This document shows positions 37,390 to 57,274 of a stretch of 64,000 nucleotides of DNA, piece by piece. The translations under genes and the position numbers were made by a program. The stretch is from Prorocentrum cordatum (lineage: Eukaryota > Sar > Dinophyceae > Prorocentrales > Prorocentraceae). Below the pieces are notes generated by a model, which saw nothing but the letters and a program-made list of their open reading frames with translations, was not told where the DNA came from and made no database searches. Within the stretch, counting starts at the first letter, position 1, and each line of letters opens with the position of its first letter. Location of the stretch: positions 1 through 64,000 of the forward strand of contig CAUYUJ010014620.1 of assembly GCA_963575745.1 (NCBI GenBank). Reading direction: 5' to 3'.

Positions 37390-37395
37390 GTAATC

Positions 37396-37490
37396 TTGGC
37401 AGAACACAGTGGCATTTTTTTTGAGAAAGGTATTTTTCCCACCCGCCCACGTTCGGTTCTGATCGTCAGCTTGCTGGTTCATATGCAAAC
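37396..37490 (+). repeat. Left terminal inverted repeat of the 19.9 kb element
   Basis: Pairs with 57,170-57,268. The outer 19 bp are identical, and similarity falls inward until simple (TCC)n and (GGA)n tracts begin on the respective sides. Confidence 0.75.
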
Positions 37491-37494
37491 TTTC

Positions 37495-37603
37495 ACTCCT
37501 CCTCCTCCTCCTGCTCCTCCTCCTCCTCCTCATCTTCTCATCCGTTCTCTATCCTCCTCTTCCTCCTCCTCCTCCTCCTCCTCCTCAGTCTCCTCCTCCT
37601 TGT
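37495..37603 (+). repeat. (TCC)n tract next to the left terminus
   Basis: Two blocks of cctcctcct with a short interruption. The right end of the element has pyrimidine-rich DNA at 57,085-57,170 instead. Confidence 0.9.
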
Positions 37604-37923
37604 CCTTGAGCCCTGCTTGGAACTCGCTTGAGCCTCCATTCCTGGGCCACTGGTTCCAATCCTTGGGCCCCGCCCTGCAAGGCGCCTCTTTGGGGCCCAC
37701 CTTGAGGCCCCCCCGCCTTGGGGTTAGGATGGTGTCGCATAGCATACAATTGCTACAGTGAGGGGCTGAACGGTCGGAAGTTCTGCCCTGGGGCACGGCC
37801 CACTTGCCGCTCTTTTCCGCTGTGGATCTACACCTCTTCTGCCGCGCGGCCGTTTTGGCCCAACAACATGCTTATCGAACAACGGCCCCTGTGTTGCTAG
37901 ACACTCCCAGTGCTGTTGTCGTG

Positions 37924-38451
37924 ATGGTCGGCGTTGGCCCGCCCCCAGCTGCTGCTGCCGGCGGCATTCCGAGCCGCGGTCGTTCGAGGAGCCCCCAGCC
38001 GTACCGCATGAGCAAAGTAGGATCCATCGTGAGCTTGGTGAACATGCCTCTTGAGAGTGATGGGCAAGTGCTGATTCAGGGGGAGGTGAATTGGTCGACA
38101 CTGTGGACGCGTAGGGTGACGCATCCTCAGCTTCGCGACGTCCATCTGAGTCACAAGGTGGCGCAGTTCAGGACTGTGATGTTCTGCACCAACTGCTACA
38201 ATTGGGTTCGGGATGTCAGGAGGTTCGAAATGTTCAGAGAGTGCGCCGGATATAGTTTGACAAAGTACACTCGCAAAGTACGTCGCAACCTGATGAGGGG
38301 TCAGTTCCCATACAAGGCGCGGCCTAAAAATGGCTGTGACGCTTTTGACACGCAAGATGGCCGCATTGTCCACGATCCTAGGGATTGGGATGGAGTCCCA
38401 AAGCCAGAGCCGATTGCGCTTGCGTTTGCCGCCGGCTATTCACCAAACTGA
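37924..38451 (+). CDS. Hypothetical protein with CxxC, 175 aa
   Basis: The first ATG of an open frame that extends further upstream without one; the true 5' end may be an upstream exon. An N-terminal Ala/Pro/Arg-Ser segment (residues about 5-30, including SRGRSRSPQP) precedes a globular-looking region. CTNC is at residues 88-91 and another Cys at 107 (FRECAGY), followed by a basic stretch (KYTRKVRRNLMRG); this could be an incomplete zinc site with a nucleic-acid-binding patch. It ends at a TGA and no later exon is identified. I recognise no family. Composition and lack of repeats make it likely coding. It is the first gene inside the 19.9 kb element, same strand as the methyltransferase 4.2 kb downstream. 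Confidence 0.55.
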   Translation: MVGVGPPPAAAAGGIPSRGRSRSPQPYRMSKVGSIVSLVNMPLESDGQVLIQGEVNWSTLWTRRVTHPQLRDVHLSHKVAQFRTVMFCTNCYNWVRDVRRFEMFRECAGYSLTKYTRKVRRNLMRGQFPYKARPKNGCDAFDTQDGRIVHDPRDWDGVPKPEPIALAFAAGYSPN

Positions 38452-38985
38452 ACAGAATAGGCCGCCAATAGGGGTGAGTGTTGCAATCCTACTCTTCTCG
38501 TTGATTCGATTTGGGGTCGTCTTGGCGCTTGAAAACAGAATAACATCGTGCTTCGTCTAAACAAGCGTCGTGTGTCGGATGGGTTCCTTATCTCATGAAG
38601 GGGCTTCTCGTTCAGCGAGGTTTGTTTGCATAGCACAAAGAACCAACCTCCTCCTATCATCCCCCGCCTCTGCCCCCTCTTTCTGACGAAGTTTTCTGGA
38701 GAACGACTGCGGAAGTGAGGAGGAGGAAAAAGAGGGGGAGGAAGGGGTTCGTTCCATGCGCAAAGCGGACAAAGAGAGGAGACGGCAAGAGGCCGCAGCT
38801 AGGAGACGCGGACCCCTCAACAGTCCGGGGGTGCGTTGATAATCTCGCTTCGCTTGGCCCTATGGATGGCGTCGGAGAGTGCAAGCACCGTTTGGGGAGA
38901 TCGGAATCGCGATTAAGGTTCGCATCGCCATCATCTTCATCCTCACCAGAGCCATTTGGGCTTCGACCAGCCGATTCTGGCAACG

Positions 38986-41098
38986 ATGGCTCCCAAGCGT
39001 CCAAGGGCAGGTCAGCAGCAACCTGCTGCTGCAGAGCCTGGCCATGCGTCGCAGATGGTCAACCTCACCCCCTGCTCAGAGGACATGGCGCTCAACGGAG
39101 AGTACGTGTCAAAATTTGAAGCGATGATGGCTCGACTGAAGACAGTGCAAGAACTTGAAAACGTGGAGCTGCTCGACGCACAATCAGTGAGCCAAGGAGG
39201 TCATGGCAACGAGCTCGTTCTGGAGGACCTCAAGTACGCGATGCAGCACGACAACACGGACCAGTACCAGGGTGCGATGAACATCTTCGTCCACGACGTC
39301 AGGTGGAGGCCCCAGAAGCCACCATATAATACGAAAGGAATCGACGATTTGGCCAACCACAGCTTCAGCTCGCCTCCCTCTGGGACAACGCGGTTGCAGA
39401 TCCACGTGTACCTCGAGGGACCGGCTGAAGTAGAGACCATGCTCACCACCAAACGTGGCACCATCAAGCGCGTGAGTCCAGAAGAACCAGTGCATGCCTT
39501 CCTCTGGGGATTAGATAAGTTCTTCCAGATCCCACAGAACAGGCGGAGCGTAGAGGAGGCCACTCGATGGGTCACAGCAATCAGGAATACCGACTTCATC
39601 TTCCATACGCTCACGTCTGAGAGCGCCGTGATCAAGAATAGCATCATCTTGCGAGAGGAGTGGAGCCAGCGCTACGCAGCGGTTCAGCGTTCACCTTTGA
39701 GCTTGTTGTGCATGATCATCGAGCAGCGGAAGAGGCTGGGGGAGACCAAATCGGGGAAGGTGACAACAGAGCAGCTGTATAGCTTTTACGAAGGGATTAC
39801 GTGGAGTACCACCAGCGAGAAGATCAGTAAAAATACATTGGAAAACACCTCAGCCATCAGCAACAAATGGGCATTGGCACTGAGCGAAGCTGGCGTGGAT
39901 TGTCAGCAGATCGTCAAGCGCAGCGAGGAAGCCTACGGATTGGAGTCACCTTTCCCGAGCGTTCTCAGCATCTATTTGATATGCTCCAAAGCGGGGAAAC
40001 AGGGGTCCGGCGAAGCTTGGATGTTCGAGATGATCTACGACCAGTTTCGAGCTAAGAACATCGTGAAGGCCAACATGGGGGCCAGCGCCTTGCAGGGTAA
40101 GAGGTTCTCGGACTGCGACGTGTTAGCTTTCAAGAAGGAGCTGAAGGACGCCATCCTGAACGACGAGCTGAACACGTTGGCCATACCTCAGAGGGTCAAG
40201 ACGACGATCCGGAACTACCTTCAGAGTCCGAGCGCCTACAGGGCCAAAGAGGGCTTCCCCGACAACCAGTTCGCCCGCTTCGTCGAGCCTGTCGCCCAGA
40301 CCGACTGGAAACAAGAGTTTGGCAGACCTGAAGGTTTATTCGATTCGTTCGCTTCTACCTTGATCTATGGGAAGGGCTACAACAACACCATCCTGCAAGC
40401 GCTGAAGCTTGGAAAGAGCCCCGCAGATGCACTGCGGTACGGTTCGATGGGCCAGGACTTGCAGAAGGTCCATTCCGCCATCGAGGAGGAGAAGCAGGCA
40501 GCGGAGGAAAAAAAGAAGACAGCCAAGGAGAGCACCAAAGAGGACGGCGAACAGAAGGAGGACGACACCAACAAGCAGGAGGAGGAGAACGAGCTGAACG
40601 TCAAGGAGGACGACGACGACGCAAGGCAGCGGTGGTTCAACCACGCGTCTTCCTTGGTGAGGTCGCGCGTGACTCTGGTTGCTCCTGGGCCGAATGAGGG
40701 CGCTGTCATTGCAGCGATCAAGGACACCGCAGCGGTCAAGAAGGCGCAGTGCACATCGTGCGAGAACGTCTTGGTGTTGTACAACTGCAAGGGGGAAGGT
40801 CAGAACAAGACCCAGCCCACGATCCGGATGCCAGTCAACAGGTCTGCCTACATGGGTCGTTGCACTCAGGCCGCCATCAAGGTGTTCTGCTCTGACGACC
40901 CCGACAATGTGGATCCTGACCAGATGACTCTTCACCCCAAGGCGTGCTTCGTCTTCCTCGACGCCTTCAAGCCCGCGAACCTCGAGGTTTATTTGAAGGG
41001 CTTCGTGGCGATGGATCGGAAGATTGCTGTGAATACGAAGGACTACTACATCACATATGAGGACGGGCAACACCAAACATCACACCCATCACCACTCA
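38986..41098 (+). CDS. Large element-encoded protein, first exon (about 704 codons)
   Basis: Begins at the ATG of MAPKRPRAGQQ and stays open for about 2.1 kb with non-repetitive, well-mixed amino acids. Residues 1-25 are basic and Gln/Pro/Ala-rich; 25-490 look globular with no motif I know; 498-547 are Glu/Lys/Asp-rich and probably coiled or disordered; 548-700 look globular again (RWFNHASSLVRSRVTLVAP, CTSC near 589). A plausible donor GTAAGA follows at 41,099, at the start of a low-complexity tract. The region after 548 resembles, from memory, a high-copy dinoflagellate family of unknown function whose members continue into a domain like the next exon. Neither function nor splice phase could be settled. 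Confidence 0.62.
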
Positions 41099-41396
41099 GT
41101 AAGAGGGAGGAGGAGGAGGAGCAGGAGGAGGAGGAGGAGGAGGAGGAGGAGGTGGAGGGCGACGACGACGAGGACGATGAGCAGGAGGAGGACGAGGAGG
41201 AGGGCGACGAGGAGGATGAGGAAGGAGGAGGAGGGGGAAGAGGAGCAATCTGCTCCTCCTCCTCCTCCTCCTCCGCCTCCTCATTCGCAGCTTTCTTATC
41301 CTCTTTCTCATCCTTCTCCTCCTCCTACCTCCCTTTCCTTCTCCTCTTCCTCCTCCGCAGCTCCCTCTTCCCTCCTCCATTTTTTTGTTTCCCGAG
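41099..41396 (+). repeat. Putative intron formed of complementary (GGA)n and (TCC)n tracts
   Basis: Starts gtaagaggga, runs as purine-rich aggaggaggag and gacgacgacgagg to about 41,250, then switches to ctcctcctcctcc through 41,365 and ends tttttttgtttcccgag before coding-like sequence. The two halves can pair into a long stem. The donor and acceptor look like splice sites, but the phases of the flanking frames do not match with these exact borders, so one border is off or non-canonical. Confidence 0.5.
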
Positions 41397-42005
41397 GAAT
41401 CGTCGCTGAAGAAACGGCGCGTCCGGGACTGCGCCGAGGCGAGCTTCCCCTGCGTGGAGCACATGACATTCGTCACGAAGGACCCGCTATCTCTGCCTCC
41501 GAAGCAACGGCTGCTCGATTCGAACAGTTCGAACCAGAACAATCACATTGGCCCCCTTGTAACAGTGGATCCGTCCGACAAGGACGAGTGGACTGCATCA
41601 ATCTTCGACAAAACAAAGATCTTGGGAGACAGCCTCATCGAGTCTGGCGGTCGCGTGGCTGGCGCTGCCAAGATGCCGGGGCCTAAGCGGCTCCCCACTG
41701 ATATCGAGAGGGTGTCCCTGCACAGTAACTCGACGATGTTCTACAAAGAGCTGGTCCACTCGTTCGCGGCGTCAAGCATCGTTCAGTTCACGCCCTTGAG
41801 CGAGAACGCCGCCATGGCGGCGATTATGATGAAAATTCCCATCACGTGCGTGTGCTTTACAGAGTTCCACATGCACGCCATGTACAACCGGTTGGTCGCC
41901 CGGGTCTTCAGGAGCCTCACGGATGAGAAGGTAGAGGAACTCTACGAACCCATGGCGGTGGCGGATCTTGTCAACAAGAACGCCGAGGATTGCCGCTGCT
42001 CTATA
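41397..42005 (+). CDS. Second exon: degenerate methyltransferase-like domain
   Basis: An open, non-repetitive frame of about 200 codons. The first half (LKKRRVRDCAEASFP, PLVTVDPSDKDEWTASIFD) links to the previous exon's family as I remember it. The second half, MFYKELVHSFAASSIVQFTP then SENAAMAAIMM, ITCVCFTEFHMHAMYNRLVA, has the layout of a Rossmann methyltransferase: a strand, then where DPxxGSG would sit here FTPLSEN, then a hydrophobic strand, acidic residue and helix. The glycine-rich loop is lost, so SAM binding is doubtful. It resembles the end of N6/N4-type DNA methyltransferases, but this is weak. It stops where a (CCT)n tract begins. Confidence 0.5.
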
Positions 42006-42669
42006 AATCCTCCCCCTCCTCCCCCTCCTCCTCCTCCTCCTCCTCCTCCTTCTCCTCCTCCTTCCTCCTTCTCCTCCTTCTACTCCCTCCCTCTCTCCTT
42101 GTCCTGGGCTTCAGATCTCCCATGGGACCAGACTCCAGTGTCACAAAATATGTCCCTTGTCCTCCTCCTCCTTCTCATCCTCATCTCCTCCTTCTCATCC
42201 TCATTTCCTCCTTCTCATCCTCATCTCCTCCTCCCCCATCCCCTCCTCGCCTCATCCACCGCTTCGTCCTATTCTCGCTCATCCTGCTCATCATGCTCCT
42301 CTTCCTGCCCTACTGCTCAGCCCGCGCCCAAGGAGGGGGCTGGCGACGATGGCGCTGGAGACGGTGGTGGTACCGGCGGCGAGGACAGCCGACCCCCCCG
42401 GCCGGGCCGCCACGACGACAGCGGTTGGCGACGGCGATCGCGGACCAGTGGTCCGCGATCGCCGTGGCACGACGATCAACGACGACGATGACATCGACGA
42501 TCGGCACCGGCAAAAATAACGACAACGATGCCACCACAACGGCGACTACGACGATGTCCACGATGACAGCGGCGACGATGTCGATAACGACGTTGACAAC
42601 ACCGCATCCACATGCCGATTTGGCTCGCAAGCTGGCCCGCGCCACTTTAATTCACAGCCCTCTGAGACG
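42006..42669 (+). other. Pyrimidine-rich probable intron and acidic low-complexity segment
   Basis: 42,006-42,305 is (TCC)n and ctcatcct repeats, a probable intron. 42,310-42,669 is rich in GAC/GAT codons in the frame that leads into the methyltransferase ATG (GDYDDVHDDSGDDVDNDV), suggesting an acidic N-terminal extension or exon, but a TAA interrupts that frame at 42,517-42,519. Whether this joins the methyltransferase to the upstream exons by splicing is unknown. Confidence 0.45.
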
Positions 42670-43917
42670 ATGAGCTTCAAGCATCGCCAATGGACTGATG
42701 ATGAATACAAGTTCGGCGTGCAGGCCGAGAAACCAAGTGAGCCAGCACCAAAACGTGTCATCAAGAAGCCAGCTGCAGCTACGCGACTGCGCAGCCGCAC
42801 TCCTCCGCCCCGAACGGCCTCGCCTCCATTCCTAGACACTGGGCCCACGATCGTCACTGTGGACGACTGCGTTGGAATGAACAGCGTGGCACATGCTTTA
42901 CGTGGTCTTGGATGCAATCACAGATGCTTGGCGGTCAGCGACATCGACCCTATTGTACAGGCCTTCTGGTTCGCTAACTTCGCGGATGGACAGTGCCGTT
43001 TCTTCCCCGACTTGACGAAGCGGGATAAAGCTTGGCTGGTGGCTCAGGGCGAGATCGACGTCTATACGGCTGGCTTCCCATGCCAGCCGTTTTCAGCTAG
43101 CGGCCTCCATGGTGGAGCAGACGACCCTCGAGCAGCATGCATCGCCCATATAATTTCATACATCCAGTCTGGAATGCCACGCACATTCATTTTAGAAAAC
43201 GTCGAGGGGTTAGTTACGTCCCATGCTGAGACATTGACGTGGATCCTCAAGAAGCTCAAGGGGGCCGCATCGGGCGCTTACTTTGTGGATGCGAAGTTGC
43301 TGCAGACATCTGAGCATGGCATCCCACAGAGTCGCACGCGCTTGCTGATCATCGGCATCAAGAAGAACCTGATGAATGGTAGGACGTTCGAATGGCCAAC
43401 TGGGTTCAGTGCACCCTCAATTGACGTCTTGCTAGAGCCAGTTGTTGAGCCCCCAGGTGTTCATCAGCAGCCACCAGTCTCTGCAAGGACCGCGCGAGGC
43501 AACTTCACCCAGGTGTTCAGGCACATCATTGAGAAGTTCAAGGTTAATCCACTTCTCGGCACGACTTTCGTTGCGGATATCGACAGTACTGTTCCACACA
43601 TGATGCGAGACATGAGCCCGTGCTTGACGAAACGCCGTGGATACTGTGGCGGGCATTGGGTTTTTTCTCGCGGCCGGCGACTGAGCTTGAAGGAGTGTTG
43701 CAGCTTGTTTGGCATGAACCTTAACGACTTCAGGGCCCCTGGCGCGGTCACGGTGAACCAGCTCAAGGGCATGTGCGGTAACTCCCTGCCAGTCAACATC
43801 CTCGAGAGGATTCTCATTCGTTTGCTCCCGACGGCAGGGATCTGCTCAGCCACCGCGCTCAATCAGCGGTGGGAGAACCAGGGGTCAGCTACTCGCACTC
43901 TCAGGGCCATCTCTTAG
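42670..43917 (+). CDS. Cytosine-C5 DNA methyltransferase, 415 aa
   Basis: Transfers methyl from S-adenosylmethionine to carbon 5 of cytosine in DNA. Motif I is at about 62-74 in the altered form TVDDCVGMNSV (usually DLFxGxGG). Motif IV GFPCQPFS is at 135-142 with the catalytic Cys 138, motif VI ENVEG at 176-180, motif VIII QSRTR at 220-224, motif IX around 316-349 (RRLSLKECCSLFGM), and motif X GNSLPVNILERI at 370-381. The target-recognition region between VIII and IX is short (about 90 residues). No chromodomain, PWWP, BAH or CXXC domain is visible; residues 1-55 are basic and disordered (KRVIKKPAAATRLRSRTPPP). All key residues are present and the frame is uninterrupted from ATG to TAG, so it may be functional. 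It lies inside the 19.9 kb element, 170 bp before a nested transposon. Retroelement capture of such enzymes is reported for dinoflagellates; no reverse transcriptase is visible here. Confidence 0.9.
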   Translation: MSFKHRQWTDDEYKFGVQAEKPSEPAPKRVIKKPAAATRLRSRTPPPRTASPPFLDTGPTIVTVDDCVGMNSVAHALRGLGCNHRCLAVSDIDPIVQAFWFANFADGQCRFFPDLTKRDKAWLVAQGEIDVYTAGFPCQPFSASGLHGGADDPRAACIAHIISYIQSGMPRTFILENVEGLVTSHAETLTWILKKLKGAASGAYFVDAKLLQTSEHGIPQSRTRLLIIGIKKNLMNGRTFEWPTGFSAPSIDVLLEPVVEPPGVHQQPPVSARTARGNFTQVFRHIIEKFKVNPLLGTTFVADIDSTVPHMMRDMSPCLTKRRGYCGGHWVFSRGRRLSLKECCSLFGMNLNDFRAPGAVTVNQLKGMCGNSLPVNILERILIRLLPTAGICSATALNQRWENQGSATRTLRAIS

Positions 43918-43957
43918 AGCGAGATACCACAATCGAGTCAAGGGGCGTGCAGGAAAA

Positions 43958-44072
43958 ACATCATCATTATCATCATCATAATCATCATCATCAGCATCAG
44001 CATCAGCATCAGCATCAGCATCAGCATCAGCATCAGCATCAGCATCATCATCATCATCATCATCATCATCAT
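43958..44072 (+). repeat. (CAT)n/(CAGCAT)n microsatellite
   Basis: catcat units flank about nine cagcat units, immediately before the left end of the nested transposon. Confidence 0.95.
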
Positions 44073-44179
44073 AGTCGTTCTTTGTTCCCCACATCCTAAG
44101 TGGGCTTCTTGTTTTCTCTGGATGGCCGCGGGCCACCCACGCGCACATACACACACACACACATCATGATCATCATCCT

Positions 44180-44560
44180 CGGGCATTCCATGCGAGCCCG
44201 CTCGCACGGAAGGGACCTCCCCGGCCAGGGGGGCCACCTAAAAGTTGGAATTCCAACGGCTATCGGGATCAGCGAGCCCGCTCGCACGGAATGACCCTCA
44301 GGGGCATTCCATGCGAGCCCGCTCGCGCGGAAGGGACCTCCCCTGTGGCCCCTAGGGGGCCCCACCTAAAAGTTGGAATTCCAACGGCTATCGGGATCAG
44401 CGAGCCCGCTCGCACGGAATGACCCTCAGGGGCATTCCATGCGAGCCCGCTCGCGCGGAAGGGGCCTCCCCTGTGGCCCCTAGGGGTCCCACCTAAGAGT
44501 TGGAATTCCAACGGCGATCGGCATCAGCGAGCCTGCTCGCACGGAATGACCCTCAGGGGC
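44180..44560 (+). repeat. Left subterminal direct repeats, three copies of about 125 bp
   Basis: The unit contains cattccatgcgagcccgctc, gcgcggaagggacctcccc, cctaaaagttggaattccaa and cggctatcgggatcag. Each has the palindrome gcgagcccgctcgc twice. Three inverted counterparts are at 54,487-54,890. Confidence 0.88.
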
Positions 44561-45600
44561 GGAGGAGGAGGATGAGGAGGAGGTTTAGGAGGGAGGATGG
44601 AGGAGGAGAGAAAGATGAGGAGGAGGCGGGGATTTCAACCACGGTGCCGTCAGGAGGACGCGGTTGAAATGGACGCTGCTCAAGGCGGAGGAGGAGGAGG
44701 AGGAGGAGGAGGAGGGAGGAGAGGAGGAGGTGCGATGAGGAGGAGAAGAGGAGGAGGAGGAGGGGAGGAGGAGGAGGGGGGGGGACCAGGAGGAGAAGGA
44801 GGAGGAGGAGGAGGAACAGGAGGAGGCGGAGGAGGAGGAGGAGGAAGAAGAGCGAGCGGGGAGGAAGGTTTCAACCACGGCGGCGTCGTGAGGAGGTGGC
44901 TGAAACGAAAGCCGGTCGAGGAGGAGGAGGCGGAGGAGGATGAGGAGAAGGAGGAGGAGGAGAGAAAGAGGAGGAGGAGGCGGGGATTTCAACCACGGTG
45001 CCGTCAGGAGGACGCGGTTGGAATGGACGCTGCTCAAGGAGGAGGAGGAGGAGGCGGAGGAGGAGGAGGAGACGTGAGGGTGATGAGGAGGAGGAGGAGC
45101 AGCAGGAGGATGACGAGGGGTATTCCGTACGAGCCCGCGCGCGCCGAATGGTCCTCATGGGGGTAGCAGGGGGAAGAGGAGGAGGAGGTTTAGGAGAAGG
45201 AGGTTGAGGAGGAGGAGGAGGAGAAAGAGGGAGGAGGCGGGGATTTCAACCACGGTGCCGTCAGGAGGACGCGGTTGAAATGGACGCTGCTCAAGGCGGA
45301 GGAGGAGGAGGAGGAGGAGACGTGAGGATGATGAGGAGAAGGAGGACGACGAGGAGACGGACGAGGAGGAGGAGGAAGAGGAGGAGGAGGAGAAGGAGGA
45401 GGAGGAGGATGATGATGATACTGATGATGATGATGATGAAGGAGGATGATGAGCAGGAGGAGGAGGCTCAGGAGGAGCGAGGGGGGAGGAAGGTTTCCAC
45501 CACGGCGACGTCGGGAGGAGGTGGTTAAAATGAAAGCCGGTCGAGGGGGAGGAGGCGGAGGAGGAGAAGGTGGAGGAGGAGCAGCAGCAGCGTCAGCAGG
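44561..45600 (+). repeat. Left arm: (GGA)n matrix with five hairpin modules
   Basis: Two alternating ~50-bp modules are set in gga repeats. Type 1 (ggggatttcaaccacggtgc ... gcggttgaaatggacgctgc) is at 44,628, 44,978 and 45,238. Type 2 (ggtttcaaccacggcggcgt ... ggtggctgaaacgaaagcc) is at 44,867 and 45,493. Each is internally palindromic (TTTCAACC with GGTTGAAA). They are candidates for transposase-binding sites. Frames through the arm are poly-Gly/Arg/Glu artefacts. Confidence 0.85.
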
Positions 45601-45894
45601 AGCAGCATCATTCTGATAGTGTGCATATTCCATACAAAAATAGGTTTTCATTTGGGGTCCATCCGTTGGAGTAATTGTTGTCGTTGCTACCGCCATCTGT
45701 GTGAGTCCTGGGCTGGGTACCACCGTGTCCTCTTTGCATTCCCCATTCTCTGAGTAGGCTGGGCCCCGGGGAAAGCAAGATGGAGGAGGAGGGGGAGAAG
45801 GAAGAGAGGAATGGTAGACAACGGATCACAATTGTTTGATGAGCTGGCCACTCTGAGCGTTGGGATCAGGGGCTGCAGCGGCAGCTCGGAGAAA

Positions 45895-46067
45895 GCCTCA
45901 AAACGAATACTTACCCTATGCAGCTGCGAGTGTCGCGGGGTGAGACCAGAGGCAGGGAGGGAAATAGGAGGGGGAGGAGAGGAGATGAGTGGAGAGGAGG
46001 AGAGGAGGATAAGACGCGAGACGGTGTCTATTCGAAACGAGGACCCAACACCACATGATGGTTAGGA
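45895..46067 (+). mobile_element. Dispersed repeat I, compact copy I3
   Basis: Starts ccctatgcagctgcgagtgt and ends attcgaaacgaggacccaac, accacatgatgg. It has the same ends as the units at 26,890-27,605 and 31,540-32,182 but without their minisatellite, only a short purine-rich middle. Confidence 0.65.
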
Positions 46068-46120
46068 GGAGGCGGAATGAATCTAGCATGTAATCCTCTG
46101 ACGATGACGGTGCGCATCAA

Positions 46121-46354
46121 TTGCCTAGTCTCATCCTGATGCATCCTGCGCTGCGCCCGCGCCAAGACTCGAAGCCAGAGAACAAGAAGAGAGGCACCAG
46201 CAAGGCCGGGGGCGCCCCGAAGAAGAAGGCCAAGACGGAGGAGGGCGGTGGGTCGGGGGCCGCAGCTTTGGAGAACCTGCTGAAGGCCCTGGACCCAAGC
46301 AGCGGAGGAGGCGAGGGAGCAGGGGATGATGACGCCGTGGGTGAGAGCGCCTAA
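46121..46354 (+). CDS. Possible N-terminal exon of the transposase gene
   Basis: About 70 codons of lysine-rich then glycine/acidic sequence (NKKRGTSKAGGAPKKKAKTEE resembles a nuclear localisation signal; then GAAALENLLKALDPSSGGG) ending at a TAA. The composition is protein-like and not a simple repeat, and it lies upstream of the transposase exons on the same strand. Its link to them is not demonstrated. It could be a separate small gene of the nested element. Confidence 0.35.
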   Translation: MPSLILMHPALRPRQDSKPENKKRGTSKAGGAPKKKAKTEEGGGSGAAALENLLKALDPSSGGGEGAGDDDAVGESA

Positions 46355-47111
46355 CTTTCGGTCCAGAGTCTCAGGGCACGGTGATCAAATCACACACACA
46401 CACACACACATAAGCACGACTTAGCCAGCATAGCAATCGCAGAGCATGTCAAAGATCACTGATGCCAAGAACTTCTGTTTTTTTTGCCACGCCCAGTGTC
46501 GTTGATTTTGGCCATGCAGTGTGCGAGAATCTCAGTTTATGTCGTTCCCCTGCCCTCCTCATTGAATTCCCTCTCCTCCTCCCCATCCTCATCCTCCTCC
46601 TCTGCGCTTCTGCAGGATGAGCTAGCAACCAGTTGCATATAGGTGATGACAGGCTCCATTGACAGCAATGCGTGCGGCATTCAATTTTTTTGGATGGAGG
46701 CCTGATCGTCGGACTTGAGCGTGCGTTGACAACTGGGCGTGGCATACTTAAGCGAATCGCTTCGCCGGCATATCAGAGGCACACAGACGCGAGCGCATGT
46801 TGATGTACTGTCTAAGAGGTTGCGCCATTGTATGCGTGCACGTCCACACGGACATACACACATACATTCACATGCACACAAGCAGAGATAACATAGGGGT
46901 GCGCGGTGCGAGTGCAAGCTGATGCCCTTCGCTGGACAGCAGAGGGCAGTTTAAGATTGTAGGTCGCTGGAGAAAGCGAGATGTGGGTTCGTTCTTGCTA
47001 GACCAGCTCTCCTAGACATGTCGTGCGCTTCTTCTGCGAACGCAAGAGCAAAAGGGTCCTCACATAACGCGGTGTCTAGGGGGCTTTGGAAGTCAACGTT
47101 TGATATATAGC
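46355..47111. other. Non-coding spacer inside the nested element
   Basis: Short (CA)n at 46,387-46,412 and 46,850-46,880; otherwise unique, lower-GC sequence. Probably intronic or intergenic within the element. Confidence 0.5.
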
Positions 47112-47124
47112 TCATCTTCCTAAT

Positions 47125-47625
47125 TGCTTGGATTTCTGAGCGCTCGGATTTCTGAGCGCTCGGATTTCTGAGCGCTCGGATTTCTGAGCGCTCGGATTTC
47201 TGAGCACTCGGATTTCTGAGCGCTCGGATTTCTGAGCGCTCGGATTTCTGAGCGCTCGGATTTCTGAGCGCTCGGATTTCTGAGCGCTCGGATTTCTGGA
47301 TGACCAGATGCTGCGTCCAAAAAAAATGCCACTGTGTTCTGGGCTGCCCCCCGCGACTCTGCGGCTGAGTGACATAAGGGGTGGTTCATTTGAACCACCC
47401 CTTATGTCACTCAGCCGCAGAGTCGCGGGGGGCAGCCCAGAACACAGTGGCATTTTTTTTGGACGCAGCATCTGGTCATCCAGAAATCCGAGCGCTCAGA
47501 AATCCGAGCGCTCAGAAATCCGAGCGCTCAGAAATCCGAGCGCTCAGAAATCCGAGCGCTCAGAAATCCGAGCGCTCAGAAATCCGAACGCTCAGAAATC
47601 CGAGCGCTCAGAACTTCAACTGCCT
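47125..47625 (+). repeat. 500-bp near-perfect palindrome with 16-mer arrays and transposon-end sequences
   Basis: Centre at 47,389/47,390 (ggttcattt gaacc). Inner arms of about 100 bp are matched almost perfectly and contain agaacacagtggcatttttt (47,439-47,458, and its complement at 47,321-47,340), the same word as the termini of the 19.9 kb element. Outer arms are tandem 16-mers, cggatttctgagcgct, about 11 on the left (47,129-47,296) and 8-9 inverted on the right (47,483-47,612). No ORF. Confidence 0.88.
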
Positions 47626-48000: not shown

Positions 48001-48568
48001 ATGCTCTCGCACGCATGTTTTGTTATTCGCTTCTCCGCCAGACCCCTTGAGTTTGGTCAAGATGCTTTGCAGCGCTACCTAGGACCTAGGTCGAGCTCTC
48101 AGAGAGTCTTGAAATACATGAGGGGTGCACCTAAACAAACGTGGCGACCTGCGCGCGAACCCCCTCTCCCCCGACGACGTCCGAGGACATCATCAGAAGA
48201 CCTCTGTTTAACCGCAACCGAATGTCAGACATTATCCTGGCGAAGGACTCAACCGCATGCAGCTGCGACTACCGCGAGCGAGATGAGACAATGGAAGCGG
48301 AGAGGACAGGAGGAGATGATGGGGCCTTCAAAGGATCCTACTTCACAGGATGGTTGAACAACGCGACAAGAGATGTCATGAGGCCGACGAAAGGTGCCGC
48401 CCGATCGATCCAGGGCGGAGGCATCCGTTTCCCTTTCCACCTCACACTCCTCAACGTGTCCATACCCTGCCCCCCCCGCCTGTGTGCCAATCCGTCCTCA
48501 CCTCCAATCCAATTTTTTTTTGGCTCAAACAGTGCACTCAGTCTGGTGTCTTTTTTTGCACGCTCCAG

Positions 48569-49522
48569 ATGCATGATGGGCAAATGCGGGCCCGCGCCTG
48601 GTGGGCACGCTAAGTCTGCAAAAGTACATGGGAAGAACGTTGGTGTACCCTTCATCTGCACTAAGATAAAATGGTTACGACTACGTCACAAGTGGCAGTC
48701 CCGTTTCACGATGGACATCGGTGGTGATGTTATGCCTTGGATATCCTGGAACAGTGGCATTGGCTGTGCAGCGTGTCATCTATCAAAAATGGGTGGTACC
48801 TTTGGGGATTACGACGTGCGCTGCCCATCAAGCGCACAAGTTGTCAATTTTGCCAAACATGAGATGGCTAAGTGCCACCAGGTCGCGGTAAAGGCGCTCA
48901 ATGACCGAATATCTGGAATCACCTTTGATGCGACGATGGACCTTGAGACTCCACCCGAGGCTGACTTCGTCACTCTATGGCAGAATATCTCGTCTTCTCC
49001 ACTGGGCACTGATCATGGTAGCAAGAACCGGAAACTCGTTTATTGCTTGGCGGAAAGCTGCAGGGAGGCCAACAGGATGGCGATCGCAAGTGGATGTTCA
49101 CTCACGCTCTCTCAAGATGCTAGCAGAGGTCGTCAACTGGCTCGGTTTTGGGTGGCGGATAAATCCTTGGTGACACACAGTGGGGTATTTGCAATGAGGT
49201 TGATGCCGCGCGGCAGCAGCGTGAGCATTTTGGAAACAACGAAAAAGATGTTTGCTCAATTTGCTACAAGATATGCAGGCGCCCCCGAGCGCCGTCGTGG
49301 TGATGCATCTTTGAAGCCCAGCACGCCGCCTTCATTAGACATCAAGTTGGAGGCGCACTGTCGCGCCATTGTTCACGTGTGGAATACAGATGCTGCTGAA
49401 AATGAGATTCTCGCTGGCAAGGAAAGCGCCCGAACGTGCTTACCGAATGGGCAAGAGATCACGCCCATGTTTCACAATCTCAGGTTTATCAACCGAGACA
49501 GAGCTCACGCGTCTCGCAGGCC
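48569..49522 (+). CDS. hAT-like transposase, exon with zinc finger and first two acidic residues
   Basis: A non-repetitive exon preceded by a cag acceptor and open to about 49,522. The N-terminal part has a BED/TTF-like zinc-finger pattern (GCAACHLSK, then NFAKHEMAKCHQ), expected for DNA binding. Candidate catalytic Asp residues are in LTLSQDASRG (GAT 49,116-49,118) and in FINRDRAHASRR (GAC 49,497-49,499). With the E in the later exon they fit an RNase H-like DDE transposase. From memory the words RDRAHASRR and PWSADEYLK recur in a multicopy dinoflagellate family. Joining codon phase CC at 49,522 to G at 50,100 restores RPWSADEYLK, giving an intron 49,523-50,099, although its donor is not GT. 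Confidence 0.68.
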
Positions 49523-50099
49523 AGGGGTGCAGGAAGGGTCTAACCTATTTCGATGACGCGGGTTGTGCATGTAGGTCCTTAGTCTGTATCAGCCCAGGAA
49601 TGGGGGGGGGGAGGGATTCATGCTTCTGTCTGCCCCAGGGTGGTGAAACGCCCGTGGCTGCCTTAATCGCCTGGATAGCAATCCATGCGATCGCGGTTGC
49701 GATCTTGCTCTCGCCTTTGCGTTCTGTCTATTGTCGCCGTTGGCCGCCAAGTTGGAGGAGGGGGTGAGCAGGGTAAAGACGCATTCATGTAGGATGGGGG
49801 TGCTGGAGGAATTGGCTGGATCGGCTAACGACCGCGCGCCGGGCAGCTTGAGCGTGCTTGAGCCATGTCCTCCTCCTCCTCCTCCTCCTCTTCCTCCTCC
49901 CCCCTTGCCAACTGACTCGTCATCACTCCCCCGCTCCTCCGCTTTCATGCCCCCTGCCTCTCCGAACCGCTTTTCGGAAAGACCTCCATGCCTCGCCGTC
50001 CTCCTCCTCTCCCTCCTCCACTTCCTCTGTGTCTTTAGCACATCGTCAACTCATATGTTGTGACCTTGCGTGCTGGTAACATCGCGGATGTGAACTAAG
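49523..50099 (+). other. Putative intron in the transposase gene
   Basis: Contains (TCC)n at 49,866-49,905 and stops in all frames. The acceptor is ctaag at 50,095-50,099. The donor side reads agggg rather than GT; dinoflagellate introns often break the GT-AG rule, so this is plausible but unproven. Confidence 0.45.
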
Positions 50100-50820
50100 G
50101 TGGTCAGCCGACGAGTACCTGAAATCAACTTATGACGCGTTCGTCCTCAGCTCAAACAGCATGACGTCTAAAATTCAGCACAGCGACGGTATCAAAGATA
50201 TAGACAGGAAATACCAGACGGCAATTCCAGAACAATTGGTAAAGACTCAGAGCTCTCTGGGTTTAGCCCCACACCGTTTTGATAGCACAACTAAGCCTGC
50301 CGCTGCGTTTGTGTTGACGTCGCTGGCGATCCACATGACAGCTGAGCACTTGTGGAACAGCCGTCGGAACGAAGCTCCCGGCAAAAGTGCCAAGGCTCAC
50401 CTCGAGCTTTCGTCTGGCGAACTGGGCATGGAGAGGTTGTTGCAAATGGGGATGCTCGCAGACGCAGGTGACGAATCAATGTTGCTCACCAGGTACTTCG
50501 ACGAGGAGGGGTGCGACACCGCAGAAATATTATCACAGACGTCACGCTTCTTGAGCGCGGTGAAAGTCCTCTTTGTGGATGGCAAAGCCGTTGGAACAGG
50601 TTTCACTGCAGTCGCCCTGGCGACGCTACGTCATGAAATCGTGTGGTTCGACACCAATGGGATTGTGCGTCACATCGGCAGCAGCAGAGGACCATCAGCC
50701 GACACAGTGCAACGCTGTTTGAGGAGAATGTGCGCCTGGACCTCGCTCGTCGTCAGGGTCATTGAGACGGAATTCCCGAGTTTCGACATCATGTCTGCAT
50801 TCATGGTGTTCAACGTGTCT
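50100..50820 (+). CDS. hAT-like transposase, second core exon
   Basis: Opens with WSADEYLKSTYDAFVLSS, continues MTSKIQHSDGIKDI, then LGLAPHRFDSTTKPAAAF, LADAGDESMLLTRYFDEEG, SAVKVLFVDGK and IETEFPSFDIMSAFMVFN. The order matches, as I remember it, the middle of the same dinoflagellate transposase-like family (a helical insertion between the second D and the E). No stop within it. The end is set where conserved-looking sequence gives way to low-complexity residues; the exact donor is uncertain. Confidence 0.65.
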
Positions 50821-51309
50821 TCTGCCTCAGACCCCTCGCAGGAGCCCGGGCTAGAGGTTTGGGGGTGCATCGAAATCTCACCAACATCCACCTCCTCCGT
50901 TCCCACGCTGCCCCCGCTGCTTCTCCTGATGACCCTTGCTGTCTTCTGCTCCTCTGCATTTCGCATCAAGGCAATAACTCACAGATAATGTCACACCCCT
51001 GTCTTGTCTCTGCTCTTGTACTGCTCCTGCCTGTGTTCTCCACTGCTCCGCTTTTGCTGCTCCTCTTCCGCATCCTCATCCTCTTCCAGATCACGGGCCT
51101 ACGCCTACTTTCAGTAACACGGGCATGACGAAACGCAGAAAACAGGGCCCCCTGAGCACGACGGACCCCTGGGCTCCAGATCTCCCATGGAACCAGCCTC
51201 CAGTGTCACAAATTATGTCCCTTGTCGTCCTCCTGCTCCTCCTCCTCCGCCCTCCTCCGCCTTCCTCCCTCCTCCTCCTGCATCCACCTCGCCCCCTCCT
51301 CAGACTGTC

Positions 51310-51701
51310 GCGCGACCCCAGAGGACTCGTCATTCAAGAACTCCCTGGAGAGGCTTGCTGCAGCTTTTGGGGTTGACAGTGGTGGCCTCGCCAGGGAGCT
51401 CATCAGACTACACCCACTGGCGAGGCATGCTTACGTTCAGGGGCGTTTGACTTCCAACTTAGAGGCTTGGCAGACTGTGATGGGCACAATCAACAAACAA
51501 GGGCGCCGAGCTGATCTGGCCGCCAGCTACCCGACAGCGAACATCGCCCCCGTTTTGTAAGCGCACGCCGCCTGGAGGTTGTCTACTTCTGGAGTTGAGC
51601 AGAACTTTTCCCTGAGGGACATGAGGGGGGAAACTGTCATTCATTCGGGGATGTTCAATTTCGCACTCATGAGATTTTGGCACCTGTTCGGGCCCCTTTG
51701 A
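51310..51701 (+). pseudogene. hAT-like transposase, third core exon with in-frame stop
   Basis: Reads SSFKNSLERLAAAFGVDSGG, LHPLARHAYVQGR, AWQTVMGTINKQ and YPTANIAPVL, then TAA at 51,558-51,560, then continues in the same frame as AHAAWRLSTSGVEQNFSLRD to TGA at 51,699-51,701. STSGVEQNFS matches the position and style of the conserved hAT C-terminal block (S-x-ER-x-FS type); its Glu codon at 51,597-51,599 is the probable third catalytic residue. The TAA falls just before the catalytic Glu, so unless it is read through, edited or spliced out, this copy cannot make a full enzyme. Confidence 0.62.
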
Positions 51702-51815
51702 AATGAAAGTCAGAGGCGTGATCCATGTGCTTTGCCTTTCCGCATTTCTAGATCCCCGCAAGGATTGGCTGGCCCCGAAACGCAGGAACTTCGGCTGCAC
51801 TGAGTTCGACCCGGA

Positions 51816-52230
51816 GTGCCCCCAGCTGAGCTAGATCTGATGCAGATCAAGACCCACAAGCTAAACGAGCCCATCACTAAACTCGTGCAGCGCGCCAGGG
51901 AGATCTGGGGCGTTTTATATGGCCCTGTGAGGGCCTCTGGTCGGCGCATGCAGGGCTGGAAGAGGCGTCGCCCCCCTGATGATCCGCACACTCCAACTAA
52001 AGGTTCGGCCTCGCAGTTCCTGAAGAAACGCAAGGAGGAGTGTGAGACGCTGGTGGCCCAGAGCGGTAGGAAGCTTTCCAGATCTGAGATCATGCAGGCT
52101 AGCAAGAATGCGTCCCATGATGCCTGGACTGAGCGTCACGACAAAGAATCGAAACATCAAGAGTCTGCTAGACAGCTGCGCCTCTGCGAGGCTGCCAGTC
52201 GTGGATTAGCGCTCGATAATACAAGCTTCG
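51816..52230 (+). CDS. Transposase, C-terminal helical exon
   Basis: Charged helical sequence: LVQRAREIWGVLYGPVRASG, then RRMQGWKRRRPP, SQFLKKRKEECETLVAQSG, DAWTERHDKESKHQESARQ. From memory the motif REIWxxxYGPxRxSG follows the VEQxFS block in the same dinoflagellate family. It starts after PPAELDL without a clear ATG; the upstream border is not resolved. After about 52,230 the frame loses coding character. Confidence 0.55.
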
Positions 52231-52356
52231 CCCTGCGTGCCCGGACACACTTCTATCTAGAATATCTAAGTAGTGGAATACACCAGCGCTCGCTCCAATG
52301 GGAAGCAACGTGTTTAAACTTCCATGTTCTCACAGCCTGGGTACCAATAGGTACAG

Positions 52357-53058
52357 GTGGACTCAGACAAGTCTGTTGGTTTTGATGATCTCTTGGCGGC
52401 CTACAAAGCACATGAAGATAAGAAATATTCTGAGAGGTCCGCTGCAGTTGAGAGGCTGAAAGCCACGCTCAAGCCTAAGACACCAGACAGAGAAGATTTG
52501 TTTGGGTTGAAGGTATGGGTGCAGGCTAACATCTTAGATCCAGTAGCAGTCGCTGGAGCCTTTGCCACTCACAACATGCGGCGCGCTCAGAATGGGCGAG
52601 ATGTCGATGTGTTTGTTGTGGACTTCGATGCGATCCCATTTGGGGTCACGTGGACGGCGTGTCTGTCGGGCGCCGTGCTGGCGTCTGCTTCTTTCTTTAC
52701 ATCCGGAGGCCAGAGCGGCCCGAGTGTGCAATTTAATTCCCCGCTGGGGATTCAGAAATTTTTGTGGGTGTCGCCGCGTTTTGTGGCCAGCCGCAAGCCT
52801 CTCGCAGAAACATTGCATCATTTTTTGAGGGTTCGGCGTAACAAGTGGCGTGCGTTAGATAGCCTTGAGGAGTTCTTGCGAAAGCATGTGGAACAACCGC
52901 GTGCTCAGTCGAAGTTCGTTGCGCTTGTTACAAATGCAGACAAGGAGGCAGTCCCGCAGCTGGCCAATCAGCGGTTCGCGTTTACAGCTGAGCAGTTTGT
53001 TGCACATATTGCTAAGCGAGACGCTTCGCGCTCATGCGTTGGGGTAGCTGGGCGCTGA
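52357..53058 (+). CDS. Transposase, last exon (C-terminal domain)
   Basis: Starts directly after a good acceptor (gtacag at 52,351-52,356) and runs 233 codons to TGA. Sequence: GFDDLLAAYKAHEDKKYSER, then DVDVFVVDFDAIPFGVTWTA, LSGAVLASASFF, IQKFLWVSPRFVASRKPLAE, FVALVTNADKEAVPQLANQR, FTAEQFVAHIAKRD. It looks like a compact alpha/beta domain of unknown role that, as I recall, ends proteins of the same transposase-like family. No domain name can be given. No premature stop. Confidence 0.58.
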   Translation: MDSDKSVGFDDLLAAYKAHEDKKYSERSAAVERLKATLKPKTPDREDLFGLKVWVQANILDPVAVAGAFATHNMRRAQNGRDVDVFVVDFDAIPFGVTWTACLSGAVLASASFFTSGGQSGPSVQFNSPLGIQKFLWVSPRFVASRKPLAETLHHFLRVRRNKWRALDSLEEFLRKHVEQPRAQSKFVALVTNADKEAVPQLANQRFAFTAEQFVAHIAKRDASRSCVGVAGR

Positions 53059-53269
53059 CAGAAAACATTGCGGAACATAAACCGTCGCTCCTCCCCCTCC
53101 TCCCCCTCCTCCCCTTCTCCTCCTCCTATTCCTCCTCCTGCCCTTCATGGTTTCCTTGGCACTGTCCCTCATCAAAGTGAATTGCAACAGTGGTAGCAAC
53201 CACACCGCCGCCAACAACTGCAACACAATAGCAGAACGTGCGATGGCAACCACAAAGGCATGCAACATT
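53059..53269. other. 3' flank of the transposase gene
   Basis: (CTC)n tract at 53,080-53,140, then unique sequence up to the inner edge of the right arm. Confidence 0.5.
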
Positions 53270-53344
53270 ACGATGAACAATTACTCCAACGGATGGACCC
53301 CACATAAAAACCTAATTTTGTATGGAAAATATACACTATCAGAA

Positions 53345-54486
53345 TGATGCTGCTCCTGCTGACGCTGCTGCTGCTCCTCCTCCACCTCCTCCTCCTCCGC
53401 CTCCTCCTCCTCGACCGGCTTTCATTTCAACCACCTCCTCCCGCCGCCACCGTGGTTGAAACTTTCCTCCCCGCTCGCTCCTCTTCCTCCTCCTCCTCCT
53501 CCTGTTCCTACTCCTCCTCCTCCTCCCCCTCCTCATCCTTATCCTCATCCACCTCCTCCTGGTCCCCCCTTCCTCCTCCTCCTACTCGTCGTCCTCATCC
53601 TCCTCCTCCTCCTCCTCCTCATCCTCACGTCTCCTCCTCCTCCTCCTCCTCCTCGTCCGCCTTGAGCAACGTCCATTTCAACCGCGTCCTCCTGACGGCA
53701 CCGTGGTTGAAATCCCCGCCTCCTCCTCATCTTTCTCATCCTCCTCCTTCTCCTAAACCTCCCCCTCTTCCCCCTGCTACCCCCATGAGGACCATTCGGC
53801 GCGTGCGGGCTCGTACGGAATACACTTCAAGGGCATTATCCTCGTCATCCTCCTGCTGCTCATCCTCCTCATCATCACCCTCACGTCTCCTCCTCCTCCT
53901 CCTCCTCCTCCTCTCTCTCCCCTCCTCTCCTCCTCCTCCCTCCTCCCTCCTCCTCCTCCTCCTCCTCCTCCTCCTTGAGCAGCGTCCATCTCAACCGCGT
54001 CCTCATGACGGCACCGTGGTTGAAATCCCCGCTTCCTCCCCCTCTTTCTCATCCGCCTCCTTCTCCTCATCCTCCTCCGTCTCCTCCTCCTCGACCGGCT
54101 TTCGTTTCAACCACCTCTTCCCGACGCCGCCGTGGTTGAAACCTTCCTCCCCGCTCGCTCCTCTTCTTTCTCCTCCTCCTCCTCCTGTCTCTCTTCTCTC
54201 CTCCTCCGTCCTCCATCCACCTCCTCCTGGCCCCCCCCCTCCTCCCCCTCCTCCCTCCTCTCTCCCTCATCCTCGTCCTCCTCTCGTCCTCCCCTCCTCC
54301 TCCTCTCCTCCCTCTCTCCTCCTCCTCCTCCTCCTCCTCCTCCGCTTGAGCAGCGTCCATTTCAACCGCGTCCTCCTTGACGTGGTTGAAATTCCCGCCT
54401 CCTCTCTTTCCTCTCTCCTCCTCCTATCCTCCTCCTCCTCCTCCTCCTCCTCCTCCTCCTCCTCCTCCTCCTCCTCCTCCTCCTCC
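53345..54486 (+). repeat. Right arm: (TCC)n matrix with five hairpin modules
   Basis: Reverse complement of the left arm. Type 2 modules (ggctttcatttcaaccacct ... ccgtggttgaaac) lie at 53,414 and 54,092; type 1 modules (gtccatttcaaccgcgtcct ... cgtggttgaaatccc) at 53,668, 53,985 and 54,355, the last shortened. The order mirrors the left arm, supporting true terminal repeats rather than chance tracts. Confidence 0.85.
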
Positions 54487-54895
54487 TCTGCGCGAGCGGG
54501 CTCGCATGGAATGCCCATGAGGGTCATTCCGTGCGAGCGGGCTCGCTGATGCCGATAGCCGTTGGGATTCCAACTTTTAGGTGGGACCCCCTAGGGGCCA
54601 CAGGGGAGGTCCCTTCCGCGCGAGCGGGCTCGCATGGAATGAATGCCCATGAGGGTCATTCCGTGCGAGCGGGCTCGCTGATGCCGATAGCCGTTGGGAT
54701 TCCAACTTTTAGGTGGGACCCCCTAGGGGCCACAGGGGAGGTCCCTTCCGCGCGAGCGGGCTCGCATGGAATGCCCCTGAGGGTCATTCCGTGCGAGCGG
54801 GCGCGCCGATGCCGATAGCCGTTGGAATTCCAACTTGGGCCACAGGGGAGGCCCCTTTCCGCGCGAGCGGTCGCATGGAATGCCCGAGGATGATG
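54487..54895 (-). repeat. Right subterminal direct repeats, three copies
   Basis: Units of gcgcgagcgggctcgcatgg, gaatgcccatgagggtcatt, gccgatagccgttgggattc and ggccacaggggaggtccctt. They are inverted relative to 44,180-44,560; the third has lost an internal ~20 bp. Confidence 0.88.
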
Positions 54896-54921
54896 ATCAT
54901 GATGTGTGTGTGTGTGTGCGC

Positions 54922-54952
<31 letters not shown>

Positions 54953-55023
54953 CATGTGTGACTGGGCGTGGATGGCCCGCGGCCGTCCAGAGAAAACAAT
55001 AACCGCACTTAGGATGTGGGGAA

Positions 55024-57169
55024 TAACAGCAGCAACGACGGCAGGCAACAACTGACAAGGCAAAGCAATAGGACAATGCCGCCACGTCGACAATCATCAC
55101 AGTCAGCATCACCATCGCGGGCATCAAGATTACTGAGATTGCCCAAGACTGCCCAAGATGGCCCCAAGAATGCCCAAGATGGCCCCAAGACTAAGACTGC
55201 CCAAAGGTTGCCGACTGAGGTCCCAAGCTTGCCCCAGACTGCCCAATGTGCCCAAGATGCCTACTGGAGTGGATACTGGCTCGAGTGTCATAACACCCCC
55301 CCTCCTCCACCCGCGCCCTCACGACAATGTCAGATCGCCCTCACGACGTCTCACGACGATGGCCATCCGATGCGGCCGCGGGAACGAGAGTTCGCCAGTC
55401 CCTGGCGAATGCCATGGGCATCGGACATCCGCTTCGCATCGGTGGCCCCGCTGGAACGACGATTGCCCACCCCTCGACGAGGCCACGAAGAGGAGGAGAA
55501 ACATGGAGGAGGGGGGAGTGGATTCGTAGGAGGAGGAGGATATCGAGACAGAGAAGGAGAAGGAGAAGGAGGAGGATATCGAGGAGGAGGAGACAGAGAA
55601 GGAGAAGGAGACAGAAAAGGAGAAGGAGGAGGAGGAGGGAGGATATCGATCAAGCCTCCGGCTACTGCAGTCGGGGGTCCCGGGCACGCATGGGCGGCAC
55701 GTGGGCTTTCGCGAGTGGCATATTCCAGCAGATGGAGAGGGGGTTCAAACTACAGCCCAAGCCCTGTTCTTCCCTCTCCTCTCACGACGAGTCTCTCTCT
55801 CTCTATTTCTCTCTGTCTCTCTCTCTCTCTCTCCCCCCTCCCCCTACCCCTCCTTTCAAACTTACTTCCCTCCCCTTCACTCCGGGGGTCCCCCCCGAGG
55901 AGGAGAACCCTCGCGAAGATCCCAGCGAGGCCGGTGACGATCCCGACTTCGAGGGCCCAGGCGATCGCGACGACGAAGACGATGACGAACGAGCCCGGCC
56001 GCGGCTGAGTCGGCGGCGGCGGCCCCCCCGTGAGTGAGGGCCAGGGCGCGGCGGCGGCGGCCTGGGCGCACCTCCCTGGACGCCTGGACATCAGCTCCTC
56101 CTCATCCCACTCCTCCTTCATCATCCTCCTGTTCTCTTGAAAGGCGCATCCGTCTTTCCTGGGACAGAACGCCGACCCCGCGGAAAAAGGGCCCGATAGG
56201 GCCCGGGCCGTTTGACGTCGATCCCAGGACATCAAACAAACTCGGTCCCCAACGACCTTGTCCCCCAGCAACTTTTTCCCGTGTACGCACCCAAAACAAG
56301 GGTGCATGGCACCCAAAACAAGGGTGCACGGCATTTGCAGCGCATTGCTAGGAATAGAGGAGGAAGAGGGGAGGAAGATGAGAAGGAGGAGGAGGAGGAG
56401 GAGGAGGAGGAGGATGCGGATGAGGAGGAGGAGGGGGGAGGAGGAGGAGGAGGAGGGGAGGGGGGGGAGGAGGAGGAGGAGAGGAGGAGGAGGAGGAGGA
56501 GAAGGAGGAGGAGAGGAGGAGTGAGGAGGAGGAGGAGGAGGAGGAGGAGGAGGGAGGAGGAGGAGGAGGGAGGAGGAGAGGATAAGGAGGAGGAGGAGGC
56601 CCTGAGGAGGAGGAGGAGGGAGGGTGGTGAAGAGAAGAAAGAGGAGGAGAAGGAGGAAGGAAGGGGGAGGATGAGGAAGGGAGAGGCGGAGGAGGAGGAG
56701 GACGAAGAGGAGAAGAAGATAAGGAGGAAGATGAGGAAAATAAGGATGAGGATGAGGATGATGAAGAGAAGGTGCAGCAAACGGATCTGGGAGAACGCGA
56801 ACCGGGACTGGCGGAGGTCTCTCGCCGTACGCACATCGTCGAATTAAACATCAACAGGGAGAGGGAATGATGAAAAGAGGAGCAGAACAGTTGAAGAGAA
56901 GAGGATGACGAGGAAATGATACTGAAACAAAACGAAGAGGAGGACGAGGGATGAGGGAGGATGGAGGATGAGGGTGATGGGGGATGGAGGAGGGAGAAGA
57001 GGAGGGAGAACGAGCAGGGGTTACGAAGAAGGTGGAGGCTGTTCGGAGGAAGAGGGAGGAGGATTATAAAATAAGGAGGGGTTTCCTCCTCCTCGCCTTG
57101 CTCCTCCTGCCGAGTGCTCCTCCCTCTTTCTCCTCCTCTTGTCTTCCTATCGCCTCCTCATCCTCCTTA
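55024..57169. other. Right remainder of the 19.9 kb element
   Basis: 55,130-55,260 is a short CCCAAGATGGCCC-type array. 55,500-55,650 is a GGAGAA/GGATAT purine tract, 55,790-55,840 is (CT)n, and 56,355-56,760 is a long (GGA)n tract. About 55,890-56,037 is an acidic then basic frame (EENPREDPSEAGDDPDFEG, then RARPRLSRRRRPP) that could be a terminal exon, but support is weak. 56,280-56,330 has two copies of acccaaaacaagggtgcatgg. No clear gene. Confidence 0.5.
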
Positions 57170-57268
57170 TGATATCGAACCAGTAAGCGGACGAGTAGAA
57201 CCAACGCAGCCAGAGAGGGCGTTGGGAAAAATACCTTTCTCTGAAAAAATGCCACTGTGTTCTGCCAA
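57170..57268 (-). repeat. Right terminal inverted repeat of the 19.9 kb element
   Basis: Reverse complement begins ttggcagaacacagtggcat and continues as described for the left end. Confidence 0.75.
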
Positions 57269-57274
57269 GTAATC

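Follow-up and report, generated by a model that had tools for sequence, protein, structure and literature searches.

Transposons of the hAT type duplicate 8 bp of target site (5–8 bp), bear a C/DxxH motif after the second catalytic D and end in YARNG-type terminal repeats, and their transposases form hairpins on the flanking DNA at excision and insert by a staggered cut. Maverick/Polinton elements duplicate 6 bp of target site, and the Kyakuja-Dileera-Zisupton (KDZ) transposons of fungi carry TET/JBP genes. De Mendoza et al. (PMC5890265) describe two Symbiodinium retrotransposons with a DNA methyltransferase (DNMT), SymbioLINE-Dnmt and SymbioDIRS-Dnmt3, propose self-methylation for their methyltransferases and report de novo CG activity. 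Dinoflagellate introners have DNA-transposon-like ends, according to two further papers (PMC10666404, PMC9860276). Here we analyse 64,000 nucleotides of the dinoflagellate Prorocentrum cordatum (contig CAUYUJ010014620.1, positions 1 to 64,000; 60.7% G+C), hereafter the window, which contains a 19,875-bp element with inverted ends. This element is very probably a copy of a giant, recently active cut-and-paste transposon family with its own hAT-fold transposase, which we call TnpX, and a core gene set including a C5-cytosine DNA methyltransferase and a further protein, ORF1. The reading is carried by marks of mobility, the gene set, the folds of relatives and the linkage of the genes across diverged families.

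The boundaries of the element are as follows.

37395..57269, plus strand: whole element, 19,875 bp, with four further copies on four other contigs
37391..37394, no strand: left target-site duplication TAAT, 4 bp, from copy comparison
57270..57273, no strand: right target-site duplication TAAT, 4 bp, from copy comparison
37395..37441, plus strand: left terminal inverted repeat, matching the right repeat at each of its first 26 bp
57223..57269, minus strand: right terminal inverted repeat, pairing with the left repeat

A first-pass annotation of the window had recognized inverted ends, a unit of about 19.9 kb and an exact 6-bp duplication, GTAATC, and its interpretation as a whole is partly supported. 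The unit and its ends are confirmed, and the identity of the repeats extends to 26 bp: the terminal repeat starts CTTGGCAG, opens with CTTGG, and is identical at all of its first 26 bases and at 95.7% across 47 bases. The duplication is direct as claimed, but five copies give it a real length of 4 bp (TAAT); the apparent GTAATC is seen because TAAT is preceded by G and followed by C, both of which equal end letters of the repeat by chance. The 6-bp reading breaks down in copies C16991 and C6684, and a copy-by-copy comparison gives TTAT, TATT, ATGA and TCAC as the duplications of the four other copies. All seven elements for which both ends were seen have a 4-bp duplication (this family and the second family below), and CTTGG is found at 10 of 10 ends of the window family. 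A size near 20 kb and the apparent 6-bp duplication in the window would suit a Maverick/Polinton element or Polinton-like virus that entered the genome through an RVE integrase and was replicated by a PolB of its own. However, the copies consistently duplicate 4 bp, the element encodes a hAT-fold transposase, and no PolB, integrase, ATPase or capsid came up in the 8 frames, out of 63 listed, that were scanned with Pfam. We reject this highly improbable explanation on account of the 4-bp duplication and the absence of its hallmark genes from the frames scanned. The same 8 frames gave no reverse transcriptase.

We searched the 4.13-Gb assembly (21,875 contigs) with the left 101 bases of the element, and the ten matches comprise five ends of either kind, left and right, with one pair on each of five contigs. 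The exact 26-mer of the terminus has 10 perfect matches in 4.13 Gb, all within these five inverted pairs, and one further place (C14655) with 3 mismatches, while the reversed 26-mer, as a control, has none in 4.13 Gb. The paired termini sought in the assembly thus exist as five inverted pairs, that of the window among them, each with its own 4-bp duplication. Isolated ends of miniature inverted-repeat transposable elements (MITEs) had been named beforehand as the finding that would undo the unit, and because all perfect matches of the 26-mer fall in the five pairs, the assembly holds no solo perfect ends. The other copies diverge from the window copy by 0.8%, 1.0%, 1.6% and 3.1%. Three of them are 20.1–20.2 kb long, and the fifth copy (C15020) measures 36.4 kb because a 16.6-kb insert interrupts a CT microsatellite within it. 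This insert, at about 197.6–214.3 kb of C15020, contains open frames that were judged LINE-like by eye.

Empty sites were sought for one of the five copies, C15020. Its joined flanks with a single TCAC have 36 genome matches, of which two are its own flanks and 32 span the joint by their ranges; this copy was therefore inserted into repeated host sequence. Among three matches aligned in full, two (95% and 87%) pass cleanly through the joint, and the third (83%) has a 19-base gap near the joint, with TCGC in place of TCAC. Since there are only five copies and the assembly is fragmented, one might ascribe them to segmental duplication or an assembly artefact instead of transposition. But similarity among the copies begins and ends at the inverted ends, with the four others aligning along the whole element, no similarity at E ≤ 1e-3 appears when the 500-bp flanks of the copies, ten in all, are compared with each other, every copy has its own 4-bp duplication and one has empty sites, which leaves that explanation a negligible probability. 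Short non-autonomous relatives of MITE or introner type were also considered and rejected: none was found in the 26-mer search, where all 10 perfect matches lie in the five long copies (C14655 stands outside that set), and a scan of 201 kb gave no CTTG element of 50–3000 bp with 12-bp ends and a 4-bp duplication.

The TnpX gene was divided as below; differences among the five copies are too few for defining exons.

48573..49543, plus strand: TnpX exon A, encoding a zinc-finger-like N-terminus, the first and second catalytic Asp and DxxH; splice site predicted
50101..50850, plus strand: TnpX exon B, encoding a section of the catalytic domain's large helical insertion; end predicted
51303..51680, plus strand: TnpX exon C region, STSGVEQNFS motif with the catalytic Glu; limits predicted
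51743..52300, plus strand: TnpX exon D/E region, linker helices; limits predicted
52353..53058, plus strand: TnpX exon F, C-terminal tandem-BRCT-like domain

By sequence, neither Pfam nor PDB identified TnpX (L047), PDB giving a single match at E 0.4, so fold comparison was needed for its identification. The hAT dimerisation model of Pfam matched neither L047 nor the 8 relatives scanned of 26; the divergence may be too large for it. Fold comparison gives the TnpX relatives a Hermes-like RNase H catalytic fold with a helical insertion. In alignment A1 the catalytic residues are D183 (26 of 27 sequences), D275 (27 of 27), D310xxH313 (27 of 27) and E657 (all 23 sequences having a residue there), and exons A and C of the window hold the corresponding motifs. 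The best model of TnpX is a DDE transposase of Hermes/hAT fold that bears an N-terminal zinc finger and, at its C-terminus, a tandem-BRCT-like domain.

The other two core genes are placed as follows.

42670..43917, plus strand: C5-cytosine DNA methyltransferase, 415 aa from Met, HhaI-like, with PCQ and ENV motifs
38986..41061, plus strand: ORF1 exon 1, 99% identical to P0001 (EukProt set) across 618 aa
41394..41990, plus strand: ORF1 exon 2, matching P0003 649–843, the second half of a degenerate beta-class amino-methyltransferase fold
46171..46354, plus strand: likely terminal ORF1 exon; exon start predicted

The complete C5 methyltransferase already noticed in the first pass stands, with a match to PF00145 of 133.2 bits (curated cut-off 22), an alignment to HhaI, PCQ at 137 and ENV at 176. 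The C-terminal part of ORF1 has a beta-class amino-methyltransferase fold in degenerate form. The catalytic motif of this class is (D/N/S)PP(Y/F/W/H), and it occurs in none of 10 ORF1 sequences (8 proteins, several of them partial, plus window exons 1 and 2). No confident fold was obtained for the N-terminal half (mean pLDDT 59; VIA rows mostly span 492–818). The stretch 46193–46351 is 47% identical (E 2.4e-5) to the C-terminus of P0003, an NCBI protein of P. cordatum, and is followed by a stop; with its terminal exon there, ORF1 would hold the methyltransferase gene in its last intron. The ORF1 match P0001 (window 38986–40839) comes from a EukProt set labelled Pyramimonas sp., a green alga; its near-identity would be due to contamination of the sample or to a horizontal transfer in recent times. 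Should the set be a transcriptome, ORF1 is transcribed.

All three genes have many relatives in the genome: at least 100 matches to the methyltransferase query (100 scored of 1,188 candidates), at least 150 to the TnpX exon used as query (148 of 921) and at least 71 to ORF1 (66 of 121,299). With the five copies set aside, the matches listed comprise 93 methyltransferase places, and 42 of these have a TnpX place at a distance of 25 kb or less, where the chance mean is 0.16 (2,000 uniform placements). ORF1 places, again among the matches listed, are near TnpX in 23 of 48 cases and near the methyltransferase in 15 of 48, and the three genes occur together on at least 11 further contigs. A second family (F2) is represented on C16007 by a 17.2-kb element with ends CTTG(C/G)CGGTTGGCAGC, a TTGG duplication and the gene order TnpX-ORF1-methyltransferase, and on C15298 by a copy with the duplication CGGT; its ends read CTTGG in 3 of 4 cases and CTTGC in 1 of 4, and its ORF1 is 90% identical to P0003. 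A third family, on C6151 (52%-related), has a left end, CTTGGCTGGACACTGCGGAATTTT, close to that of the window and likewise CTTGG; one end was seen. Outside this genome there are 26 TnpX relatives, two from Symbiodinium, one from Polarella and 23 from ENA, JGI or LGN sources.

The transposon could be real and the methyltransferase and ORF1 captured passengers without a part in transposition. Host genes can be captured by transposons, ORF1 shows no purifying selection among the young copies, and 51 of the 93 methyltransferase places among the matches listed have no TnpX nearby; these may be parts of other elements, for example retrotransposons, or of TnpX copies that rank below those listed. Against this, relatives of ORF1 and the methyltransferase only about 33–38% identical to those of the window accompany TnpX in other families, and TnpX is joined with a C5 methyltransferase in one gene model from Symbiodinium (P0008). 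Such long shared retention of the genes points to selection on the element, and we consider mere passengers unlikely. On many contigs there are also C5-methyltransferase frames of ~380 aa, alike in length and score and with 35–37% identity to that of the window, without a listed TnpX nearby; this group may mark another multicopy element. As to gene order, nine of eleven three-gene contigs (C6151, C16488, C16007, C15298, C8724, C3124, C3497, C11170 and C3247) have the genes on one strand, in three linear orders that amount to one cyclic order (TnpX-ORF1-methyltransferase), and in C825 and C13381 TnpX is inverted. The common cyclic order could be a sign of circular intermediates or a coincidence.

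A composite origin, either from two small elements or from an older TnpX transposon that had landed inside an ORF1-methyltransferase element, with the present ends bracketing them by chance, is suggested by internal inverted repeats flanking the TnpX half (near 44.2–45.7 and 53.3–54.8 kb) and by a palindrome before it that contains pieces of the terminal repeat. Yet the four other copies align along the same whole, no perfect ends stand alone, and the second family carries these three genes between CTTG ends of its own, so a composite is very unlikely. The bracketing repeats, 44242–45679 against 53276–54836, are long, 78–97% complementary and partly made of short repeats. The palindrome, within the stretch 47128–47619, includes 16-bp tandem units and is mostly alignable in the other copies. 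A Cys-containing frame near the left end is probably the Cys-containing protein of the first-pass annotation; it has no Pfam match, and tblastn gave no relative in the second family.

47166..47613, no strand: near-perfect palindrome, 223-nt arms, 99%, with two internal copies of a 24-bp terminal-repeat piece
37762..38451, plus strand: 229-aa open frame with Cys residues and a CxxC pair, open in 4 of 5 copies

Several observations give the favoured reading no help. Exon C of TnpX has an in-frame stop in the window, absent at that site from all four other copies, and some frames of the other copies are broken as well, with one copy stop-free in every frame scanned. The window copy may thus be non-autonomous, while the family recently had a working source. 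The pN/pS between copies is mixed: 0.44 for the methyltransferase, 0.46 for TnpX exon B, 0.80 for exon A, 0.82 for the 229-aa frame, 1.37 for ORF1, 1.42 for exon E and 1.75 for exon F.

For an autonomous member of the family we infer a cycle of the following kind. TnpX would bind the CTTGG ends, excise the element and insert it at a 4-bp staggered cut, giving the 4-bp duplication; hAT precedent and the conserved catalytic motifs suggest hairpins on the flanking DNA. The BRCT pair, judging from its fold, may recruit or sense the DNA-break response through phosphoproteins at breaks. The frequent company of the C5 methyltransferase suggests that the element methylates its own DNA, or the ends bound by the transposase, which would let it pass as host chromatin or would time transposition. 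In METTL14-type methyltransferase pairs one partner is inactive, and by analogy ORF1 may be a non-catalytic partner of the C5 enzyme. This joint role is the most likely one for the two proteins.

Our literature search, which covered neither bioRxiv nor most subscription papers, found no such element, whether as hAT-BRCT or as a dinoflagellate DNA transposon with a methyltransferase. Within that literature, what is new is hAT-fold transposition by a giant element whose duplication length is atypical of hAT, whose transposase has a BRCT-like tail and which encodes two methyltransferase-fold proteins. Cut-and-paste DNA transposons would thereby join the mobile elements with a cytosine methyltransferase of their own, and it becomes testable whether a parasite's methylation protects, hides or times the parasite. 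A transposase with a break-sensing type of BRCT tail would be a new coupling of transposition to DNA repair. Elements of such giant size can be missed by searches: one search for introner mobilisers looked for the 3' end no more than 10 kb downstream of a 5' end match (PMC9860276). We propose, tentatively and with some doubt, an undescribed dinoflagellate superfamily of giant hAT-fold transposons, marked by CTTG ends, duplications of 4 bp and a BRCT tail on the transposase. Its life cycle would require element-encoded methylation by a C5 enzyme with an inactive amino-methyltransferase partner, evolved in parallel to the DNMT retrotransposons, and its families would account for part of the many C5-methyltransferase copies.

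Compared with known systems, introners are non-autonomous and intron-sized, whereas the search of the ends and the 201-kb scan gave no short relative of the present element. Maverick/Polinton elements share its size class and inverted ends, but it has a 4-bp duplication, short ends and no Polinton genes in the 8 frames scanned. KDZ transposons are likewise DNA transposons linked with DNA-modifying enzymes, although their enzyme is an oxidase and not a methyltransferase. The DNMT retrotransposons are also multicopy dinoflagellate mobile elements encoding a C5 methyltransferase, but they are retrotransposons, whereas the present element is a DNA transposon with terminal inverted repeats, target-site duplications, a DDE transposase and ORF1. 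With hAT elements such as Hermes it shares inverted ends, an RNase H-like DDE transposase that has D-D-DxxH-E residues and a large helical insertion, and the zinc-finger N-terminus seen in relatives; it departs from them in a 4-bp rather than 8-bp duplication, CTTG instead of YARNG-type ends, a C-terminal tandem-BRCT-like domain, a size of 17–20 kb and two methyltransferase-fold proteins aboard.

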